The notes beneath the pieces were generated by a model that saw nothing but the letters and a program-made list of their open reading frames with translations, made no database searches and was not told the DNA's origin. Made by a program: the position numbers and the translations under genes. From Moorella sp. E308F (GTDB lineage Bacteria > Bacillota > DSM-521 > Neomoorellales > Neomoorellaceae), in contig NZ_BJKN01000001.1 of assembly GCF_006538365.1 (NCBI RefSeq), positions 248,001 to 312,000 on the forward strand: a stretch of 64,000 nt of DNA, in the 5' to 3' direction. Of this stretch, positions 17,639 to 29,817 are shown piece after piece; the stretch's first letter is position 1; every line of letters starts with the position of its first letter.

Positions 17639-18895
17639 TTACAGGGCCCGGTAACCAATATCGCGGCGGTAGTGCATGCCCGCAAAATTGATGGCCTTTA
17701 TACCGGCATAAACGCGGTCCAGGGCGGCCTGTAAATTTTCACCTCGAGCAGTAACACATAATACCCGTCCCCCGGCAGTTACTACCTGACCGTCCACCAG
17801 AGCCGTACCGGCGTGGAAAACCTCCACTCCAGGCGGCACTGCCTCCAGCCCCGTAATGACTTCACCCCTGGCATAAGGTCCGGGATAACCGCCGGCCGCC
17901 AGGACCACCCCGGCTGCCGCCCCCGGGCACCAGTCAATCTTTGTTCCGGCCAGCTCACCGTTTATGGTAGCCAGCATCAGTTCCACCAGGTCGCTCTGTA
18001 AAAGCAGCATCAAGGGCTGGGTTTCCGGATCGCCAAAACGACAGTTAAATTCCAGGACTTTAGGCCCCTCGCGGGTGAGCATCAGCCCGGCGTAGAGGAC
18101 GCCGCGGTAGGGGCAGCCGGCCGCGGCCATAGCCCGGACTGTAGGCCGGAGTATCTTTTCTTCTACCTCCCCGGCTATTTCCGGAGTGTAAAAGGGGACA
18201 GGGGCGTAGGCGCCCATGCCGCCGGTATTGGGGCCGGTATCTCCTTCCCCCACCCGCTTGTGGTCCTGGGAAGGCAAGAGGGGGATCACTGTTTCCCCGT
18301 CGCAGAGGGCCAGGATGCTGACCTCTTCGCCTTCCAGGTGCTCTTCAATAATCACCCGCTGCCCGGCAGGGCCAAACCGGCCGCCGAACATGGCCGTTAC
18401 CGCTTCCCTGGCCGTGGCCGTGTCCGGAGCCACCACCACTCCCTTGCCGGCGGCCAGGCCGTCGGCCTTGACGACCACCGGGCCGGGATGTTCCTCCAGG
18501 TAGGCCAGGGCTGCCCCGGCCTCCATAAAGGCGGTATGGCGGGCCGTAGGGATGCCCGCCGCCTGCATTAACTCTTTGGCAAAAATCTTGCTCCCTTCCA
18601 GCCGGGCCGCCGCCCGGGAGGGGCCAAAAACAGGTAACCCTGCGGCCTGGAAGGCATCGACAATGCCGGCCACCAGGGGTGCTTCGGGGCCCACGACGGT
18701 AAGATCGATGCCTGCCTGGCGGGCAAAGGCCAAGAGACCCTCAATATCATCGGCGGCAATGGGCACACAATTAGCCAATCCGGCAATGCCGGCATTACCC
18801 GGCGCGCAATAGATTTCTGTAACCCGGGGACACCGGGCAATCTTCCACACCAGGGCGTGTTCCCGCCCGCCGCCGCCGACTACCAGGATGCGCAT
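17639..18895 (-). CDS. purD: phosphoribosylamine-glycine ligase
   Basis: 418 residues, ATP-grasp enzyme for step 2 of purine synthesis. [19 protein letters not shown] opens the N domain. [42 protein letters not shown] and [12 protein letters not shown] are the ATP-grasp motifs. It is the last gene of the long leftward pur operon and ends 19 nt before the shared terminator. Confidence 0.97.
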
Positions 18896-18910
18896 TTAAT
18901 AGTACCTCCT

Positions 18911-20452
18911 TTAATGCCGGAAATGGCGGATGCCGGTAAACACCATGGCTATACTAGCGGCATCGGCTGCTTTGATGGACTCTTCGTCGCGGACGGAGCC
19001 GCCGGGCTGGATGATGGCTGTAATCCCGGCCTTAGCTGCCAGTTCCACTGTGTCGCTGAAGGGGAAGAAGGCATCAGAAGCCAGGACAGCCCCTTTCGCC
19101 CGGGCCCCGGCCTGCTCCAGGGCGATGTGCGCCGCGCCGACCCGGTTCATCTGGCCGGCACCAATGCCCAAAGTAACGCCGTCCTTAGCCACCACAATGG
19201 CGTTGGACTTGACGTGCTTCACCACCTGCCAGGCAAAGAGTAAATCCTCCATCTCCCTTGCTTCGGGTTTACGGGCCGTTACCACCTTGAGGTGCTCGGG
19301 GTCGAGGACATGGTAATCCGGCTCCTGGACCAGGAAGCCGCCGCTGACGGGCCTTACCTGGTATTCCTGGACGCGGTAGGCAGCCCTCTCGTCTGCAGCA
19401 AGCAAGCGCAGGTTGGGTTTGCTTTTAAGAATCTCCAGGGCTTCCGGGGTAAAATCAGGGGCGATGACAGCTTCCAGGAATATCTCCGTCATTTCCCTGG
19501 CTGTAGCGGCATCCACCGTCCGGTTCAGGGCGACGATGCCGCCAAAGGCGGAAACAGGATCGGCCGCGTAGGCCAGGCGGTAGGCCTGGGATGGAGTTGT
19601 AGCCCGGGCCACGCCGCAGGGATTGGTGTGCTTGATGATAGCCGCTACCGGCTCTTTAAAGTCAGAGGCCAGGTTCCAGGCAGCGTCCAGGTCCATGAGG
19701 TTGTTGTAAGAAAGCTCCTTGCCCTGGAGCTGCCGCGCCCCGGCCAGGCTGCCGGGGGATACGGCGGGCAAACGATAAAAAGCGGCCTGCTGGTGAGGAT
19801 TCTCACCATAACGAAGGTCCTGGACCTTCTCGCCGCTGAGGATAAAGTGAACAGGAAAAGGCTCTTCATTGCGGATAAGGCGCTGGAAATAGGCGGCAAT
19901 GGCCGCATCGTAAGCAGCCGTGTGGGCGAAGGCCGCCGCCGCCAGGCGCCGCCGGGTGGCCGTGCTTAAATTCCCCTTCTCCCGCAGTTCGGCCAGCACC
20001 TCGCTGTAGCTGGCCGGGTCAACGACCACCGCCACTCTCTCGTGATTCTTGGCTGCTGCCCGGACCATCGTTGGGCCGCCGATGTCGATGTTTTCAATGG
20101 CCTCTTCCGGCGTTACCCCTGGCCGGGCAATGGTTTCCCGGAAGGGGTAGAGGTTGACCACCACCAGGTCAATGGGCTGAATGCCCTGCTCCTGGAGCTG
20201 ATCCAGGTGTTCCGGCGTCGGCCGGGCCAGGATACCCCCATGGATTTTAGGGTGGAGGGTTTTGACACGGCCGTCAAGGATCTCAGGAAAACCGGTAACG
20301 GCTGCGACTTCGGTAACGGGCAAACCGGCTGCGGTCAAGGTGCGGGCGGTACCGCCGGTAGAGATAAGCTCCCATCCCAGCTCTACCAGCCCCCGGGCCA
20401 GATCCACCAGGCCGGTCTTGTCGGAAACACTAAGAAGCGCCCTTTTCGGCAT
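18911..20452 (-). CDS. purH: bifunctional AICAR formyltransferase / IMP cyclohydrolase
   Basis: 513 residues. The N-terminal MGS-like IMP cyclohydrolase domain begins [18 protein letters not shown]. The AICAR transformylase domain contains [13 protein letters not shown] and the catalytic KHTNPCGVA. It makes IMP from AICAR and formyl-tetrahydrofolate, closing the pathway. The cofactor links purine synthesis to the one-carbon metabolism typical of an acetogen. Confidence 0.97.
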
Positions 20453-20507
20453 ATGTATAGCTCGCCTCCTATGAAAATAACTCGACTTGCCGCCATGAGC
20501 GGCTCCT

Positions 20508-21125
20508 TCAAATTTTCACTGCGACCCGCCGGCCGTGGAGTTCTACCCTGCCTTCGGCCAGCCATTTGATAACCTCGGGGTAAAGGCGGTGTTCTTCCAC
20601 CAGGATGCGGGCCGCCAGGGTTTCCGGGGTGTCGTCGTCCTTTACCGGTACCACCGCCTGGGCGATGATGGGGCCCGTATCGGTGCCGGCGTCAACAAAG
20701 TGGACGGTGCAGCCGGAAAACTTGACACCGTATTCCCAGGCCTGGCGCTGGGCGTTGAGGCCGGGAAAGGCCGGCAGCAGGGCCGGGTGGATGTTGATTA
20801 CCGCCCCCGGAAACTGATCGAGAAAATCCTGGCTGAGGAGCCGCATAAAGCCGGCCAGGACTACCAGCTTTACCCCCTCTTTTTTCAAGACCGCCGCCAG
20901 GGCCCGGTCATAGGCCTGGCGGGATGGGTATTCCCGGGGTACGAGGCAACAGGCCTTGAGCCCCCGCTGCCGGGCCAGTTCCAGGGCACGGGCTTCCGGG
21001 CGGTCGCTGATGACCACCTGGATGCGGGCGGGGATGCGGCCGGCAGCTATAGCGTCGGCAATGGCCTCCATGTTGCTGCCCCGGCCGGAAACCAGGATGC
21101 CTATCGGTAAAGGTGCTGCAACCAT
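20508..21125 (-). CDS. purN: phosphoribosylglycinamide formyltransferase (folate-dependent)
   Basis: 205 residues. [18 protein letters not shown] binds the phosphoribosyl substrate and [17 protein letters not shown] carries the catalytic Asn-His pair, with the second Asp in [14 protein letters not shown]. The ATG at 21125 follows GGGGGAGAGA; a longer in-frame start at 21155 has no such site. Operon position is between purM and purH. Confidence 0.96.
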
Positions 21126-21179
21126 TCTCTCTCCCCCGAAACTAGACTTTCTCATAGCAAAAGCCAGCCGTTTACTTTT

Positions 21180-22229
21180 TTATTTTAGCTCCGGCACGAA
21201 CTCTACTGCTCCCCGGCCGGGTATTATTTCACCAACCACAAAAACCTCTCCCCCGGCGGCCTCTAAGCGCGCTTTTACCCTGTCAACGTCACCGGCCGCA
21301 ACCACCGCCAGCATACCCAGGCCCATATTGAAGGTGCGGTACATCTCCGGTTCCGGCACTTTGCCGTTCTCCTGGATGAGGCGGAAAACGGGCGGTACCG
21401 GCCAGCTGCGCCGGTCCAGGCGCATGTTTACGTCCTTCGGCAGGATGCGGGGCGGGTTTTCCACCAGGCCGCCGCCGGTGATGTGGGCCAGGCCCTTGAT
21501 TAATCCCTCTTTTATTAATGGCAACAGAGAGGCTACATATATACGGGTCGGCTCCAGCAATTCTTCCCCCAGGGCGCGGCCCAGTTCCGGCAGCTGCCGG
21601 TCCAGGGTGTAACCGGCTTCCGCCAGCAAAACCCGGCGGGCCAGGGAAAAGCCGTTGGAGTGCAGGCCGCTGGAGGCCAGGCCCAGGACCACCTGGCCGG
21701 GCCGGATGCGGCTGCCGTCCAGGAGCTCCTCCCGTTCCACGACGCCGACGGCGAAACCGGCCAGGTCGTATTCATCCTCAGGGTAAAAGCCGGGCATCTC
21801 GGCCGTCTCGCCCCCGTTCAGGGCGCAGCCGGCCCGGCGGCAGCCTTCGGCCACCCCGGCGACGATTTGGGCCACTTTTTCCGGCACCATTTTCCCTACC
21901 GCCAGGTAGTCCAGGAAGAAGAGGGGCTCGGCCCCATGAACCAGGATATCGTTGACGCACATGGCCACGGCGTCGATGCCGATGGTATCGTGGCGGTCCA
22001 TGAGGAAGGCTATTTTCAGCTTCGTCCCTACCCCGTCGGTGCCCGCCACCAGCACCGGCTGCCGGTAACGGCCCGGTTCCAGGGCAAAAAGGCCGCCGAA
22101 ACCGCCCAGGTCCCCCAGGACCCCCGGCCGGAAGGTCCGGCGGACATGCTCCTGCATCAACTCTACGGCGCGGTTGCCGGCGGTTATGTCCACCCCGGCG
22201 GCAGCATAGGTCAGGCCTTCGCCAGCCAC
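21180..22229 (-). CDS. purM: phosphoribosylformylglycinamidine cyclo-ligase
   Basis: 349 residues, AIR synthetase. [32 protein letters not shown] and [12 protein letters not shown] are conserved, and [15 protein letters not shown] is the C-domain signature. It directly follows purF, two nucleotides after its stop. Confidence 0.97.
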
Positions 22230-22231
22230 TA

Positions 22232-23695
22232 TTATGCACCTCCTTCCAGGCTGTACTTGGTCGCCTCCTCCGGGGAGGGGATGGGGATGGGATAGCGGCC
22301 GGAAAAGCAGGCGGCGCAGAAATTTTCCGCTCCCCGGCTCACGGAACGGAACAGCCCCTCCAGGCTCAGGTAATAGAGGCTGTCGGCCCCGACATGGCGG
22401 CGGATGTCCTCCAGGGAATACCGGGCGGCAATGAGCTCGCCCCGGGCGCTGGTATCAATGCCATAGTAACAGGGGTGCAAAACCGGCGGCGAGGCCACCA
22501 GCAGGTGGACCTCCCGCACCCCGGCCTGGCGCAGCATCTCCACAATCCGCCGGCTGGTAGTTCCCCGGACAATGGAATCATCGATGATAATAACCCGTTT
22601 ATCTTTCAGAATTGACTTGATGGGATTGAGTTTCAAGCGCACGCCCAGGTCGCGCATCTCCTGGGTGGGCTGGATGAAGGTCCGGCCCACATAGCGGTTT
22701 TTCATCAACCCTTCGATAAAGGGTAAACCCGCCGCCTCGGCGTAACCGGCAGCGGCGGCAATGCCGGAATCCGGCACCGGGATCACCACGTCGGCCGCCA
22801 CCTGGTATTCCCGGGCCAGATTGCGGCCCAGCTCCCGCCGCACCAGGTTGACAGTTTCGCCGTCCAGGATACTGTCGGGCCGGGCAAAGTAGACGTATTC
22901 AAAGATGCAGTGGGCGCTGTGGGGCGCCCGCCGTCCCTGGATGGAGTGCACCCCCTGACTGTCGATGACGACAATTTCCCCGGGCTCAATGTCACGGCAA
23001 AAAGCGGCACCCACGGTATCCAGGGCGCAGGACTCGGAGGCCAGCACCCAGGCCTCCCCCATTTTCCCCAGGCACAGGGGCCGGACGCCAAAGGGATCGC
23101 GGACGCCGATGAGCTTTTCCTCGGTCATCACCACCAGGGAATAGGCGCCCTCCAGCTCGTCCTGGCAGCGGCGCAGGGCCACCTCAATGGGCTCCTGGCT
23201 GTAGCGGGCGATAAGATTGACAATAACTTCGCTGTCGGTGGAAGACTGGAAGATGGAGCCCCTGGCTCCCAGCTCCCGCCTAAGCCGGTTGGCATTGGTC
23301 AGGTTCCCGTTATGGGCAATGGCCACCATACCCCGGAGGTAGCGGAAAACCAGGGGCTGGGCATTGACCAGGGAACTCGCCCCGGTAGTAGAATAGCGCA
23401 CATGGCCGATGGCTACGCTACCCTTTAAAGCCCGGAGGTTGTCCTGGTTAAAAACCTCCGCCACCAGCCCCATGCCCTTGTGGACGGCAATTTGGCGGCC
23501 GTCGGCCACGGCAATCCCGGCGCTCTCCTGGCCCCGGTGCTGCAGGGCGAAGAGGCCGTAATAGGCCAGGCGGGCCACATCCTTGCCCGGGGCATAGATG
23601 CCGAAGATGCCGCACTCTTCATGCCAGGGCGACCGGTCCCAGGATAACTCCCTTTCCCTCACCGGGCCATCAAAGCCGGTATGCTCTCCCGCCAT
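22232..23695 (-). CDS. purF: amidophosphoribosyltransferase
   Basis: First enzyme of purine synthesis, of the Bacillus type. After a short propeptide, the Ntn nucleophile Cys begins the mature enzyme ([12 protein letters not shown]). [16 protein letters not shown] is the PRPP-binding loop. Cysteines in HCIFEYVYF and NFCAACFSG fit the family's 4Fe-4S cluster. The ATG at 23695 has a GGAG site and overlaps purL by 37 nt. A GTG at 23662 overlapping the purL TGA is an equally plausible coupled start that would shorten the propeptide by 11 residues. Confidence 0.95.
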
Positions 23696-25887
23696 TGCTT
23701 CTCCATCTCCCCCAGGCTGAGATTAAACACCGTCCTGCCGTTTACCCTTACCGCCAGGGCCCGGCCGGCAGTACGGCCGATGACCGCCGCCGGCACGCCC
23801 TTCTCCCGGGCCATGGCCAGCACCCTGTCCCGGGCTGCCGGCGGGACCGCCAGCAACACCCGCGACTGGCTTTCGCTGAAGAGGAGGTAGTCCGGCCGGA
23901 GACTGCTTGCCAGTTCCACTACCGCGCCCAACCCGCCGGCCAGGGCACTTTCAGCCAGGGCCACGGCCAGGCCCCCTTCGGCGCAATCGTGGGCCGCCGT
24001 CACCAGCCCGGCGGCGATGGCCTGCCGCACAACTTCCTGGACGGCGGCTTCCCGTTCCAGGTTAAGGTCCGGCGGCCGCCCGGCCACCAGACCGTGGACA
24101 ACGGCCAGGTATTCGCTGCCGCCTATCTCCGGGCAGGTCTCTCCCAGGAGAATGAGAACATCATCCTCACGGCGCCACGCCAAAGCGCAGCGTTTTTCAA
24201 TATCAGCGATGAGACCCACCATACCCACCACCGGCGTGGGATAGATGGCCTCGCCTTCCGTTTCGTTGTAGAAACTGACGTTGCCGCCAGTAACCGGCGT
24301 CTGCAAAACCGCGCAGGCCCGGCTCATACCCACTACGGCCTGGTAGAACTGCCAGGCGACTTCCGGCTTTTCGGGATTGCCGAAGTTCAGGCAATCGGTA
24401 AGGCCCAGGGGACGGGCGCCTACACAGGAGAGATTGCGGGCTGCTTCAGCTACGGCAATGGCCCCGCCCGTTTCCGGATCCAGGTAGCAGTAGCGGCTGT
24501 TGCCGTCCACCGTCAGGGCCAGGCCCTTGCCGGTTCCCTTAATCCTTAAGATAGCGGCATCGCCGCCGGGTCCGGCCACCGTGTCCGTGCGTACCATGTA
24601 GTCGTACTGGCGGTAAACCCATTCTTTACTGGCTATATTGGGCGCCGCCAGGAGCTGCAAAAGCGTTTCCCCGTAATCCCCCGGCTCCGGCAGGCGGCTG
24701 AGATCCATATTTTGCAATTTATCCAGGTAAGCCGGCCGGCGCCGTTCCACCTCGTAGACAGGGCACTGGTCCGTTAAGGCCCGGGCCGGCACCTCGGCCA
24801 CCACCCGGCCGCCCTCTTTAATGCGCATGATACCGTCGTCCGTCACCCGGCCGATAACCACCGCCTCCAGGCCCCAGCGCCGGCAGATGGCCTGGATCCT
24901 TGCTTCCGCGCCTTTTTTGGGCACCAGGAGCATGCGTTCCTGGGACTCCGAAAGCATCACCTCATAGGGGGTCATGCCCTCTTCCCGCCGGGGCACCAGG
25001 GCGACGTCGATTTCCATTCCCGTTCCGGCCCGGGACGCCATTTCGCAGGAAGAGCTGGTGATCCCGGCCGCGCCCATATCCTGCATGCCGATGATTAAAT
25101 CTTCTTTAATTATTTCCAGGCAGGCTTCAATGAGAAGTTTCTCCCGAAAGGGGTCGCCTACCTGGACCGAAGGCCGGCGTTCTTCGGAGGCCTGGGTCAA
25201 CTCCTCAGAAGCAAAGGTAGCGCCGTGGATGCCGTCGCGGCCGGTACGGGCGCCCACCAGCATGACGGCATTGCCCACCCCGGCGGCCCGGCCGCGGCGG
25301 ATGTCTTTTTGCTCGATAAGGCCCACGGCCATGGCGTTGACCAGAGGATTGCCGGCATAAGATGGATCAAAATATACTTCCCCGGCCACCGTGGGCAGGC
25401 CCAGGCAGTTGCCGTAAAAGGCGATACCGGCCACCACGCCGTTCATAAGATAGCGGGTAACCGGGTCATTCGGGGGGCCGAAGCGCAGGGAGTCCAGGAC
25501 GGCGATGGGCCGGGCCCCCATGGCAAAGATATCGCGGACAATGCCCCCCACGCCGGTGGCCGCTCCCTGGAAAGGCTCTATGGCCGAGGGGTGGTTGTGG
25601 CTTTCGATTTTAAAGACTACCGCCTGGCCGTCGCCGATGTCGATGATGCCGGCGTTTTCCCCCGGCCCCTGGAGGACCCAGGGGGCTTTGGTGGGAAAGA
25701 GCTTTAACACCGGCCGGGAGTGCTTGTAGCCGCAGTGCTCCGACCACATGACGGCAAACATGCCCACTTCCACATGATTGGGCTCCCGGCCCAGGATTTC
25801 TTTAATACGTTCAAATTCCTCGTCCTTAAGGCCCATCTGCCGGTAAACTTCAGGCTCCAAGGCGCTCCCCCCTCTGCCACCAGTCAA
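23659..25887 (-). CDS. purL: phosphoribosylformylglycinamidine synthase, large subunit
   Basis: 742 residues, the small-type PurL that works with separate PurQ and Pur[21 protein letters not shown] is the hallmark motif, with [14 protein letters not shown] and the second half [15 protein letters not shown]. It makes FGAM with glutamine-derived ammonia. It overlaps purQ by 38 nt and purF by 37 nt. Confidence 0.97.
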
Positions 25888-26560
25888 CTATAGAAGCAAA
25901 AAGTTCCCGGCCGTCGGTACCGCCCAGGAGGCTTTCGGCGCAACGTTCCGGGTGGGGCATCATGCCCAGGATATTGCCCTCCCGGTTAACAATGCCGGCG
26001 ATATTGCCCACCGAACCGTTGGGATTGGCCGCCGGCGTCACTTCTCCGTCCTGATTGCAGTAGCGGAAAATAATCTGCCGGTTGGCCTCAAGTTCGGCCA
26101 GGGTGGCGGCGTCGGCATAATAGTTACCTTCACCGTGGGCAATGGGAATGCGGACGACCTGGCCCTCCCGGAAGCGGTTGGTAAAGGGGGTGGCGTTCTT
26201 TTCCACCCTTAAATAGGTCCACTGGCAGCGAAACTGGAGGCAGTCATTGCGCCGCATGGCCCCCGGCAGGAGGCCGGCCTCCAACAGGATCTGGAAGCCG
26301 TTGCAGATGCCCAGCACCAGGCCGCCGGACCTGGCAAAGTCAATGACTGCCGGCATAATAGGGGCAAAGCGGGCGATGGCCCCGGCCCGGAGGTAATCGC
26401 CGTAGGAAAAGCCGCCGGGCAGCACCAGGCAGTCGTAACCGGCAACTTCGGTATCGCCGTGCCAGAGGTAGTCCACCGGCTGGCCCAGGACGGACCCCAG
26501 GGCGTGGTAAACATCCTGGTCGCAGTTGGAGCCGGGAAAGACGATAACGCCGAACTTCAT
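25850..26560 (-). CDS. purQ: phosphoribosylformylglycinamidine synthase, glutaminase subunit
   Basis: 236 residues, class I glutamine amidotransferase. [19 protein letters not shown] begins the protein, the nucleophile Cys is in [14 protein letters not shown], and the His-Glu pair is in [10 protein letters not shown]. It feeds ammonia to PurL. It lies between purS and purL. Confidence 0.97.
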
Positions 26561-26615
26561 GGTTGTTCCTCCATTTTATCTACCGGACTATACCCCACCG
26601 ATCGCCGCGCCGCGC

Positions 26616-26885
26616 TCAAGCCTTGCCACCGGCGCCGGCAGGTTCTTCCAGGGTAAAGCGGTATTGTTCGATCACCGGGTTGGCCAGGAGCCGCCGGCAC
26701 ATCTCTTCCACCTGCCGCCCGGCTTCCTGCCGGTCGTCCAGGTCCAGCTGCACTTCCAGGTACTTGCCGACGCGTACCGCAGTTACCCCCTCATACCCCA
26801 TGGCTTTGAGGCCGCCCATGACAGCCTCGCCCTGGGGGTCGAGGACGCCGGGTTTTAAGGTGACGTAAATTTTAGCCAGGAACAT
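26616..26885 (-). CDS. purS: phosphoribosylformylglycinamidine synthase, PurS subunit
   Basis: 89 residues. KIYVTLKPGVLDPQGEAVMGG is the characteristic start of PurS, which bridges PurL and PurQ and helps channel ammonia. The C-terminal tail (after TLEEP) is slightly longer than usual. It is located between purC and purQ. Confidence 0.95.
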   Translation of the reverse strand: MFLAKIYVTLKPGVLDPQGEAVMGGLKAMGYEGVTAVRVGKYLEVQLDLDDRQEAGRQVEEMCRRLLANPVIEQYRFTLEEPAGAGGKA

Positions 26886-26903
26886 AACTATCGTCCTCCA
26901 TAT

Positions 26904-27620
26904 TTATTGCAACAGCCTCTCCACCCGGCTTAACACTTCTTCATAGGCGTCTTCAACGCCGCCCAGGTCGCGGCGGAAGCGGTCCTTGTCCAGTTTTTCC
27001 CCGCTGGTGCCGTCCCAGAAGCGGCAGGTGTCGGGAGAAATCTCATCGGCCAGGAGGACCTGGCCGTGGAAAAGGCCAAACTCCAGCTTGAAGTCCACCA
27101 GGACCAGGTCGGCCGGCTGCAAGAATTCCGTCAGCAGCTCATTAACCTTCCAGGCGCAGCTTTCCATTTCTTCAATCTGGCTTGCGGTGGCCAGCTCCAG
27201 GGCGGCAATGTGGTAGTTGTTAATCATGGGGTCATGGAGTTCATCGGATTTATAGTAAAACTCCAGCACCGGGCGCTTGAGGGGTGTCCCTTCCGCCAGG
27301 CCCAGGCGTTTGGCCAGGCTACCGGCGGCAATGTTCCGGGCCACAACTTCCACCGGGATGATATCTACCGCCCGCACCAGGAGCTCCCGGGGGCCTGTCT
27401 GTTCAATAAAATGAGTGGGGATGCCCCGGCGGGAAAGCATCTGGAAAAACAGAGCCGACAGCCGGGCATTGATCTCGCCCTTGCGGGCAATGGTGCCTTT
27501 TTTCAGGCCGTCAAAGGCCGTGGCGTCGTCCTTGAATTCTACCAGGTACTGGTCGGGGTCACCCGTGCGGTAGACCCGTTTGGCTTTACCTTCATAGAGC
27601 AGCTCTCCTTTAGCAGGCAT
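26904..27620 (-). CDS. purC: phosphoribosylaminoimidazole-succinocarboxamide synthase
   Basis: 238 residues, SAICAR synthetase. [15 protein letters not shown] is the phosphate-binding start and [20 protein letters not shown] the metal-binding motif. [20 protein letters not shown] is also conserved. It condenses CAIR with aspartate. It follows purB by 12 nt. Confidence 0.97.
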
Positions 27621-27632
27621 GGATATTCCCCC

Positions 27633-28928
27633 TTATTCCAATCCCGCGCGGCGGAAAATGTAGTCCACGTGGCGCAGGTGGTAGTCGTAATCAAATAAAG
27701 CCTCGATTTCCTTCCGGTCCAGGTGAGCCATAATATCCTGATCCTTTAAGACCAGCTCTTTAAAGGGCTGGCGGGTCTGCCAGGCCTGCATGGCATTGCG
27801 CTGCACCCAGGCGTAGGCTGTCTCCCGCAAAACGCCTTTGTTCACCAAGGCCAGGAGAACCCGCTGGGAAAAGACCAGGCCGTGGGTGGCTTCAAGATTC
27901 CGGCGCATATTCTCCGGGTAGACATTGAGGCCGGCTATAATCTCGGTGAATTTGACCAGCATGTAGTCCAGCAGAATGGTGCTGTCGGGAATAATCACCC
28001 GCTCGACGGAAGAATGGGTGAGATCCCGCTCGTGCCAGAGAGCGATATTTTCCATGGCCGCCAGGGCATTGCCCCGCAACACCCTGGCCAGGCCCGCCAC
28101 CCGCTCGCACATGATGGGGTTGCGTTTGTGGGGCATGGCCGAGGAACCCTTCTGCCCTTGAGCAAAGGGCTCTTCAACTTCTAAAATATCAGTCCGCTGC
28201 AGGTTGCGGATTTCTGTAGCCATTTTCTCCAGGGAACTGCCGATGACAGCCAGGGTGGTCAGGAACTGGGCGTGACGGTCGCGCTGGATGATCTGGGTGG
28301 AAACGCTGGCCGGTTTAAGACCCAGGCGACGGCAGACGTGCTCTTCCACCCGGGGATTGATATTGGCAAAAGTGCCGACGGCGCCGGATATTTTGCCGAC
28401 ACTGATAATTTCCCTGGCCTGTTCCAGCCTGGTTATATGCCGGTCTACTTCCATGACCCAGAGGGCCATTTTCAGGCCAAAGGTGGTGGGCTCGGCGTGG
28501 ACACCGTGGGTGCGGCCGATCATCAGGGTGTATTTATGTTCCCGGGCCTTTTTGACGAGTTCGGACCGCAGTTGCCGCAGGCGTCTGAGGAGCAGGTCGG
28601 CGGCGTCCCGCATCTGCACCGCCAGGGCCGTATCCAGGACGTCGGAGGAGGTCATGCCCAGGTGAATATACTTGGAGGCGTCACCCACCTTTTCCGCAAC
28701 GGCAGTAAGAAAGGCCAGGACGTCGTGGCGGGTGGTGGCTTCAATTTCATTGATCCGGTCAATGTCAAAATCGGCCTTGGCCTTGATCTCTTCCAGGGCG
28801 GCCGGCGGGATCTGGCCTAGCTCGGCCCAGGCTTCGCAGGCATAGATCTCAATAGCCAGCCAGGTGCGGAATTTGTGTTCTTGTTCCCAAATTTTCCCCA
28901 TTTCCGGCAAGGTGTAGCGTGCAATCAT
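27633..28928 (-). CDS. purB: adenylosuccinate lyase
   Basis: 431 residues of the fumarase/aspartase superfamily. The signature GSSAMPHKRNPI is clear; TRHDVLAFLTAV and IHLGMTSSDVLDTA are further conserved regions. It cleaves SAICAR and adenylosuccinate. Its start overlaps the purE stop by 4 nt. No purK lies between purE and purB. Confidence 0.97.
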   Translation of the reverse strand: MIARYTLPEMGKIWEQEHKFRTWLAIEIYACEAWAELGQIPPAALEEIKAKADFDIDRINEIEATTRHDVLAFLTAVAEKVGDASKYIHLGMTSSDVLDTALAVQMRDAADLLLRRLRQLRSELVKKAREHKYTLMIGRTHGVHAEPTTFGLKMALWVMEVDRHITRLEQAREIISVGKISGAVGTFANINPRVEEHVCRRLGLKPASVSTQIIQRDRHAQFLTTLAVIGSSLEKMATEIRNLQRTDILEVEEPFAQGQKGSSAMPHKRNPIMCERVAGLARVLRGNALAAMENIALWHERDLTHSSVERVIIPDSTILLDYMLVKFTEIIAGLNVYPENMRRNLEATHGLVFSQRVLLALVNKGVLRETAYAWVQRNAMQAWQTRQPFKELVLKDQDIMAHLDRKEIEALFDYDYHLRHVDYIFRRAGLE

Positions 28929-29449
28929 TTTTTCCCCTCCCGTAAATAACCCTCGATGCCCAGCTGCGCCAGTTTAGCATCCCGGGCCGCCACTTCCCGG
29001 GCCAGCTCTTCTTTATAGGCCGCCAGGCGCGCCTTTAGCTGCGGGTCATGAACGGCGAGAATCTGGGCCGCAAGTATTGCGGCATTGGCCGCCCCGTCTA
29101 TGGCTACGGTGGCCACCGGGATGCCTTTAGGCATCTGTACCATGGCGTAGAGGGAGTCCACCCCGCCCAGGGCCGCCGTCTTGATAGGAACGCCAATGAC
29201 GGGCAGGGTGGTCACGGCGGCCAGGACACCGGCCAGGTGGGCCGCCCCGCCGGCGCCGGCGATGAGGACTTTGAGCCCCCGGCCGGCTGCATTGCGGGCG
29301 TATTCCAGGGCAGCATCGGGCGAGCGGTGCGCGGATAGGATCCTTACTTCATAAGGAATCTGGAAGCGCTCCAAGAAGCCTGCGGCCTGGGTCATAACCG
29401 GCAAATCGGAGTCACTGCCCATGACAATACCAACATGTGCCATGTTCAT
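28925..29449 (-). CDS. purE: N5-carboxyaminoimidazole ribonucleotide mutase
   Basis: 174 residues. VGIVMGSDSDLPVMTQAAG and ILSAHRSPDAALEYA are the PurE signatures, with AGAGGAAHLAGVLAA. It is the first gene of the operon, behind AAGGAGAAG and the tandem riboswitch leader. With no purK adjacent, the enzyme may use CO2 directly at the high CO2 levels of an acetogen, or PurK may be elsewhere; this is inference. Confidence 0.96.
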   Translation of the reverse strand: MNMAHVGIVMGSDSDLPVMTQAAGFLERFQIPYEVRILSAHRSPDAALEYARNAAGRGLKVLIAGAGGAAHLAGVLAAVTTLPVIGVPIKTAALGGVDSLYAMVQMPKGIPVATVAIDGAANAAILAAQILAVHDPQLKARLAAYKEELAREVAARDAKLAQLGIEGYLREGKK

Positions 29450-29540: not shown

Positions 29541-29602
29541 GCAAACTAAAGAACCCAGGCCGGGGTAGGTCACGCAACACTGAAACCTACCCGCCTGGGT
29601 TT
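29541..29602 (-). terminator. riboswitch-controlled intrinsic terminator of the pur operon
   Basis: In the leftward RNA, AACCCAGGC-GGGTAGGT pairs with ACCTACCC-(C)GGCCTGGGTT, followed by CTTTAGTTT. The 5' arm of this hairpin reuses the AACCC at the 3' end of the ykkC-type aptamer, so aptamer closure and terminator formation exclude each other. PRPP binding would therefore be predicted to turn expression on. Confidence 0.75.
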
Positions 29603-29693
29603 TTATCCCTCCGGTGTAGCACAAAATGTGCCTGTACCACTCGGACCTGGCCGCGAAATAACCTTCGCGCGGAACCCTGAGGTACACTTTCAG
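29588..29693 (-). ncRNA. ykkC-family riboswitch, PRPP subtype expected
   Basis: Conserved ykkC elements appear in order on the minus strand: TGAAAGTGTACC, CAGGGTTCCG (29679-29670), a CGCGAA...TTCGCG hairpin, GGTCCGAG (29647-29640), GGTAC closing on the earlier GTACC, a GGCAC/GTGCT hairpin, ACACCGG and GGGATAAAAACCC (29609-29597). The family senses guanidine, ppGpp or PRPP by subtype. The purine context and the adjacent guanine aptamer point to PRPP. The subtype cannot be proven from the primary sequence alone. Confidence 0.85.
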
Positions 29694-29694
29694 G

Positions 29695-29760
29695 CTGTAG
29701 CCAGGGCAATTTACGGTTGCCCGGTAGAAACTTGGGAGCCCTATTCCCCCAATTATACAG
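29695..29760 (-). ncRNA. guanine riboswitch aptamer
   Basis: A complete purine aptamer. P1 CTGTA (29760-29756) pairs with TACAG (29699-29695), then TATAATT, a P2 arm GGG...CCC, the joining segment AGTTTCTACC, P3 GGGCAA/TTGCCC with loop CCGTAAA, and J3/1 GGCTA. The specificity nucleotide equivalent to C74 of the xpt aptamer is C (position 29700), predicting guanine rather than adenine. Guanine is expected to turn the operon down. It ends 1-2 nt before the ykkC aptamer. Confidence 0.9.
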
Positions 29761-29788
29761 TCCGTTACCATATTTACTTTTCGACCCC

Positions 29789-29817
29789 ATAATAACAAAT
29801 GGGGTAACAACTGTCAA
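29789..29817 (-). promoter_or_regulatory. sigma-A promoter of the purine operon
   Basis: TTGACA (29817-29812), 17-nt spacer, TATTAT (29794-29789) on the minus strand: near-perfect consensus, about 25 nt upstream of the guanine aptamer. Confidence 0.85.

Follow-up and report, generated by a model that had tools for sequence, protein, structure and literature searches.

Guanine turns the tandem riboswitch of B. megaterium codA off and PRPP turns it on, with PRPP overriding guanine, a behavior that was tested and amounts to an IMPLY gate (Sherlock 2018, eLife 7:e33908, PMC5912903). In-line probing of the B. megaterium RNA showed that its two aptamers interfere with one another (PMC5912903). A model in which the guanine P1 helix and the PRPP P0 helix compete was proposed from one T. 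mathranii sequence and crystal structure (Knappenberger 2018, eLife 7:e36381, PMC6031431; PDB 6CK5). Examples of the guanine-PRPP tandem architecture numbered 127 when reported in 2018 and 192 in 2022. A preliminary description of the locus studied here predicted repression by guanine and activation by PRPP, in agreement with the B. megaterium result, and rightly noted that the Breaker laboratory described such tandems; the work in question is Sherlock 2018 (PMC5912903). A search of open-access papers gave no report of the Moorella leader itself, and the supplementary alignments of Sherlock 2018 may list M. thermoacetica. As set out below, the Moorella leader is a member of this known class and most likely works in the known way.

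We analyzed a window of 64,000 nucleotides from Moorella sp. E308F, meaning the whole stretch of DNA under study. The parts of the leader all lie on its minus strand, from 29817 to 29541, as a promoter, a guanine-I aptamer, a ykkC-type aptamer and a GC-rich terminator hairpin. These features and the genes that follow them are as follows.

29789..29817, minus strand: sigma-70-type promoter TTGACA-N17-TATTAT (consensus scan, 11/12 matches).
29693..29763, minus strand: guanine-I aptamer, a P1-P2-P3 three-way junction (RF00167, 73.6 bits).
29580..29693, minus strand: predicted ykkC subtype 2b (PRPP) aptamer, from the P0 5' strand to the P0 3' strand (RF00442, 61.5 bits; match to T. mathranii primers; model R1).
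29688..29693, minus strand: P0 5' strand CUGAAA, which shares 1 to 3 nt with the guanine P1 3' strand (sequence; fold).
29639, minus strand: U equivalent to T. mathranii C49 (RF00442 alignment, in which the consensus reads GAGAG and this locus GAGUG).
29595, minus strand: G equivalent to T. mathranii G96 (alignment to the primer sequences of PMC6031431; invariant in 16 Moorellales).
29580..29585, minus strand: P0 3' strand UUUCAG (complementary to 29693-29688; invariant in 16 Moorellales).
29552..29601, minus strand: intrinsic terminator hairpin (fold of -31.7 kcal/mol; arm complementarity conserved).
29543..29551, minus strand: U-rich terminator tail CUUUAGUUU (sequence; U-rich tails are also found in related loci).
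28925..29449, minus strand: purE, first gene of the operon (TIGR01162, 209.6 bits).
17639..28928, minus strand: purB, purC, purS, purQ, purL, purF, purM, purN, purH and purD (co-directional and nearly contiguous; NCBIfam equivalogs).

Eleven pur genes run uninterrupted from 29449 to 17639, each scoring above its NCBIfam equivalog cut-off. The operon of 11 genes that had been read from the open reading frames is thus borne out by the NCBIfam models as purE and ten further pur genes. Upstream, the TTGACA-N17 promoter is equally placed in 12/12 Moorellales tandem loci. The guanine aptamer lies immediately 5' of the PRPP aptamer, and no terminator separates them. The gap between the two had been given as 2 nt; it is in fact zero, as base 29693 is both the last of the guanine P1 3' strand and the first of the P0 5' strand. 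If P1 is read in a mismatch register instead, its 3' strand ends at 29691 and the aptamers overlap. The tandem is real and far above chance, given the Infernal E-values, the covariation in guanine P2 and in ykkC P1b/P2, and the presence of the ykkC element in 16/22 Moorellales genomes. In 12 of those 16 a guanine aptamer accompanies it, and the remaining four have the PRPP aptamer only, preceded by another structured RNA (three genomes) or by a plain hairpin (one genome) where the guanine aptamer would be.

A covariance scan with the Rfam Purine model, suggested as a check in the preliminary description, matched RF00167 at 29780-29678 with 73.6 bits, well above its gathering score of 37. This was the sole match of a default Rfam scan of the whole window. 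The specificity cytosine claimed for this aptamer (the C74 equivalent) was located at 29700. U51 is also present, and J2/3 is intact (GUUUCUACC and GGCUA in the RF00167 alignment). U51 and C74 separate guanine-I aptamers from the xanthine, adenine and 2'-dG (deoxyguanosine) variants (PMC9295807). By its U51, C74 and J2/3, the first aptamer is predicted to be of the guanine-I type. Four pairs of its P2 helix have changed on both sides. Its P1 helix reads GG[A]CUGUA / UACAGCC, and base 29761 in it is unpaired. In 12/12 Moorellales tandem loci this position, the third of the P1 5' strand, holds A, C or U and never G. The balance of P1 against P0 may depend on this conserved bulge or mismatch.

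Elsewhere in the same genome we observed three further purine-family matches, at G000:C1:154743-154842 (L006), G000:C2:609475-609576 (L004) and G000:C1:147868-147967 (L007). Judging from the open reading frames, the genes downstream of these encode molybdenum hydroxylase / xanthine dehydrogenase-like subunits and an apparent BMP-type nucleoside-binding lipoprotein. L006 also matches the 2'-dG-II model, at 52.4 bits against a cut-off of 60.

The suggested scan with a ykkC model gave a more qualified answer. Rfam Guanidine-I RF00442, the ykkC scaffold, did match 29692-29590 over its full length (1-107), with 61.5 bits and an E value of 1.2e-10, while falling 1.5 bits below the gathering score of 63; the match was absent from the default scan and appeared in the E-value scan only. 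Nearly all Moorellales PRPP aptamers likewise score below the RF00442 gathering score. We also built a covariance model of our own, R1, from 16 Moorellales PRPP aptamer sequences. In the R1 alignment 99.4% of pairs are kept, covariation is above all shuffles, and P1b/P2 covary. The crystallized T. mathranii PRPP aptamer can be read at both ends only, from the published primers (PMC6031431). The tails CUGAAAG ... UAGGUUUCAG and the P3/S-turn align to those primers without gaps and at equal lengths. U1 G2 A3 A4 A5 G6, G96, A103, G104 and G105 are the same as in T. mathranii. Two bases differ, namely, G for A101 and A for G95; position 101 is a purine in >75% of sequences (PMC6031431).

Which ligand does this aptamer recognize? 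According to the published rules, position 49 is a pyrimidine in PRPP and ppGpp aptamers and A in guanidine-I, and base 96 separates PRPP aptamers (G) from ppGpp aptamers (not G) (PMC6031431). Because the Moorella aptamer has G96, a pyrimidine at 49 and P0 tails with A5, G6, A103, G104 and G105, its predicted ligand is PRPP, not ppGpp or guanidine. The preliminary description had likewise assigned it to the PRPP type, and the RF00442 match, the T. mathranii-like marker bases and the purE operon downstream uphold this. A ppGpp sensor of ykkC subtype 2a would look much alike, as the 2a and 2b consensus is mostly common and a single G96A change turns the T. mathranii PRPP aptamer into a ppGpp aptamer (PMC6031431). 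However, G stands at 29595 in all 16 Moorellales sequences, the aptamer precedes a purE operon whereas ppGpp-type sequences are tied to branched-chain amino acid genes, and a guanine aptamer lies directly upstream, as in the published PRPP tandems. We consider ppGpp sensing very improbable and rejected it on the G at the 96 equivalent and the gene context. An ordinary guanidine-I riboswitch is what the name of the matching Rfam model, RF00442, would imply. That identity is so improbable as to be nearly negligible, as a pyrimidine replaces A at the marker position 29639, the conserved P0 tails absent from guanidine-I are present, and no guanidine-related gene lies downstream; it was rejected on the U at the 49 equivalent and, again, on gene context.

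The arms of the terminator lie at about 29601-29585 (5') and at 29570-29552 (3'). The whole 5' arm (AACCCAGGCGGGUAGGU) is PRPP aptamer sequence, ligand-contacting bases included. It had been noted that the terminator and the ykkC aptamer share AACCC; the sharing stands, but its extent was understated, since AACCC is only the first part of a fully embedded 5' arm. The fold of this hairpin, which overlaps the PRPP aptamer, agrees with the proposal of a single terminator common to both aptamers. A simple terminator scan did not call the hairpin, probably due to its long loop and broken U-run, and the fold and a comparative duplex test were used instead. Complementarity of the terminator to the aptamer 3' half went beyond that of shuffled downstream sequence in 44/44 tandem loci and in 67/70 other PRPP loci. 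Within Moorella, terminator covariation is uninformative because the aptamer already dictates the sequence of the 5' arm.

The aptamer string AACCCAGGCGGGTAGGTTTCAG is present in M. mulderi, M. sulfitireducens, M. thermoacetica, M. stamsii and others, and the genome studied here has one PRPP aptamer only. Built from Moorellales PRPP aptamers, R1 finds PRPP-type aptamers phylum-wide, and 211 of the 398 genomes sampled contain a match (E 1e-8). Among 114 R1 matches read closely, which were taken from the top of the list and are not a fair sample, 44 have a recognizable guanine aptamer directly upstream. One genome (L119) carries two PRPP-type aptamers, at 401-498 and 1284-1382, about 0.8 kb apart; the first has a guanine aptamer and the second has none.

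Across 43 parsed tandem loci (the script mis-parsed L014), guanine P1 and PRPP P0 have sequence in common, with the 3' strand of the former overlapping the 5' strand of the latter by 1 to 9 nt. Where the spacing is the commonest one (21 distinct loci, three core positions in each), 61 of 63 core positions pair with both an upstream and a downstream partner. Five core sequences occur (GGG, GAG, AGC, AGU and GUG), each with matching changes in both partners. None of 2000 shuffles was as good on either side; the shuffles ignore sequence relatedness, so the argument lies in how large the effect is and not in the count. The covarying shared strand supports the Knappenberger competition model across families and offers a base-pairing reason for the mutual interference that Sherlock et al. 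saw by in-line probing.

Mutual exclusivity of P1 and P0 is clear as a property of the class across the 43 loci, but the Moorella RNA has an overlap of just 1 nt in the bulge register (the ViennaRNA fold) and of 3 nt in the mismatch register. The Moorella P1 is GG-N-CUGUA/UACAGCC. Its N is A, C or U and so never forms a G-C pair, which leaves P1 and P0 with a single common base, or with as many as three in the mismatch register. The overlap is 5 to 8 nt in the T. mathranii-like loci (L097, L099, L104, L109, L110 and L115) and 4 to 9 nt in many other tandems. With so small an overlap, the P1 and P0 helices could nearly coexist in Moorella, and strict exclusion would be weaker. Direct strand competition would be weaker as a result, and more of the effect may fall to a steric clash between the adjoining helices.

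With a probability of about 0.93, in our estimate, the operon for de novo purine synthesis in this Moorella species is under the control of a guanine-PRPP tandem riboswitch whose two aptamers share one terminator. At this locus we observed its parts and their conservation, the residues from which its ligands can be predicted, and sequence complementarity for the competing helices; ligand binding, direction and logic are expected by analogy with the tested relatives (PMC5912903, PMC6031431). The nascent leader would fold the guanine aptamer first and the PRPP aptamer second. With guanine bound and PRPP low, the stabilized guanine P1 would take the first bases of the P0 strand or clash sterically with P0. 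The PRPP aptamer would then stay unclosed, its 3' half would pair with the downstream arm, and transcription would stop before purE. With PRPP bound, P0 would close and lock the terminator 5' arm in the aptamer, giving read-through even with guanine, as in an IMPLY gate. Against this reading stand the RF00442 score below the gathering score, the A at 95 (G in T. mathranii), the overlap of 1 to 3 nt and the broken U-tract.

Some relatives have something else in place of the guanine aptamer. In three sister-genus genomes (L020-L022) the guanine core is absent and another structured RNA precedes the PRPP aptamer, at about 1435-1500 in L020, at about 1421-1500 in L021, and in L022 on the reverse strand, upstream of an aptamer starting at 1617. 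A helix, GUCUGUUA/UAACAGGC, takes the place of P1 there and ends on the first P0 base. An Rfam scan of these three RNAs recognized no family, and purine-type aptamers occur elsewhere in the same genomes, two to four in each. Since its flanks resemble guanine P1 and J3/1, the RNA may derive from a guanine aptamer that has decayed or been re-purposed. In L009 (about 1465-1505) only an 8-bp hairpin (AGCAGUUG/CAACUGCU) overlaps P0 where the guanine aptamer would be, and that genome has no purine riboswitch anywhere at E 0.01. In another family (L081, at about 1446-1503, and L163-L166), a conserved stretch, CCUCAGGCA...CGGCGG...ACCNAAAU...UGAGG, stands directly before the purE PRPP aptamer, with an outer helix that overlaps P0; five sequences are not enough to claim covariation. 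In L081 it sits right after guaA. An Rfam scan of this stretch gave no match. A test for P0-occluding stems upstream of guanine-less PRPP aptamers was underpowered, its positive control reaching p<=0.05 in only 9/44.

Perhaps, then, the Moorella leader binds both ligands and is not an IMPLY gate? The switch would be driven mainly by PRPP and tuned by guanine, which through a 1- to 3-nt overlap would affect the PRPP aptamer little, or would do so by stacking or steric clash only. The minimal Moorella overlap beside the 4 to 9 nt of many other tandems, the unpaired base in the outer P1 of 12/12 sequences, and the sister genera that keep the PRPP aptamer while the recognizable guanine core is lost are all consistent with this. 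However, all 12 Moorellales tandem loci retain the guanine core, the aptamers abut without a linker and would probably clash even if no bases were shared, and the aptamers of B. megaterium interfere mutually in in-line probing (Sherlock 2018, PMC5912903). We regard a PRPP-driven switch with guanine tuning as unlikely. A broader proposal concerns the Moorella family: its PRPP aptamer might accept exchangeable partners, the guanine half being a replaceable plug-in given the minimal overlap. In Thermanaeromonas (L021, with L022 in the same genus cluster) and a further genus (L020), the core is replaced by a structured RNA with a P1-like stem by P0, possibly a sensor of another ligand. This, too, we hold to be quite unlikely. 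The gate on the purine operon remains our preferred reading.

Sherlock 2018 and Knappenberger 2018 have already published the architecture, its IMPLY logic and the model of P1/P0 competition, and the Moorella instance leaves knowledge of the class unchanged. What we add is that the strand shared by P1 and P0 covaries across distant families and is small (1 to 3 nt) in Moorella, and that sister genera have another RNA replacing the guanine aptamer. The covariation of this strand with both partners in distant families lends comparative support on the mechanistic question of the class, ligand antagonism. The leader is a clear and well-conserved case of a predicted two-input gate made of RNA alone, set before a complete purine operon in a genus of acetogens. 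It could help in engineering Moorella metabolism, and it offers a thermophilic test case in which the P1/P0 overlap is minimal.

Compared with guanine-I riboswitches at large (RF00167), the Moorella aptamer has the three-way junction, J2/3 GUUUCUAC and J3/1 with C74 in common, but differs by a one-base P3 bulge and a G for A before C74, both of which also occur in other tandem loci. With B. megaterium codA it shares a guanine aptamer directly 5' of a subtype 2b aptamer, one terminator and a purine-linked gene. The Moorella tandem, however, precedes a complete 11-gene pur operon, and it is known here from sequence, whereas codA was tested biochemically. As for the T. mathranii tandem, in the compared parts the PRPP-contacting bases and their spacing are identical except for G for A101, and the same competition of guanine P1 with PRPP P0 is proposed. 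Moorella is set apart from the T. mathranii-like loci by its overlap of 1 to 3 rather than 5 to 8 nt, by A for G at 95 and by G for A at 101.
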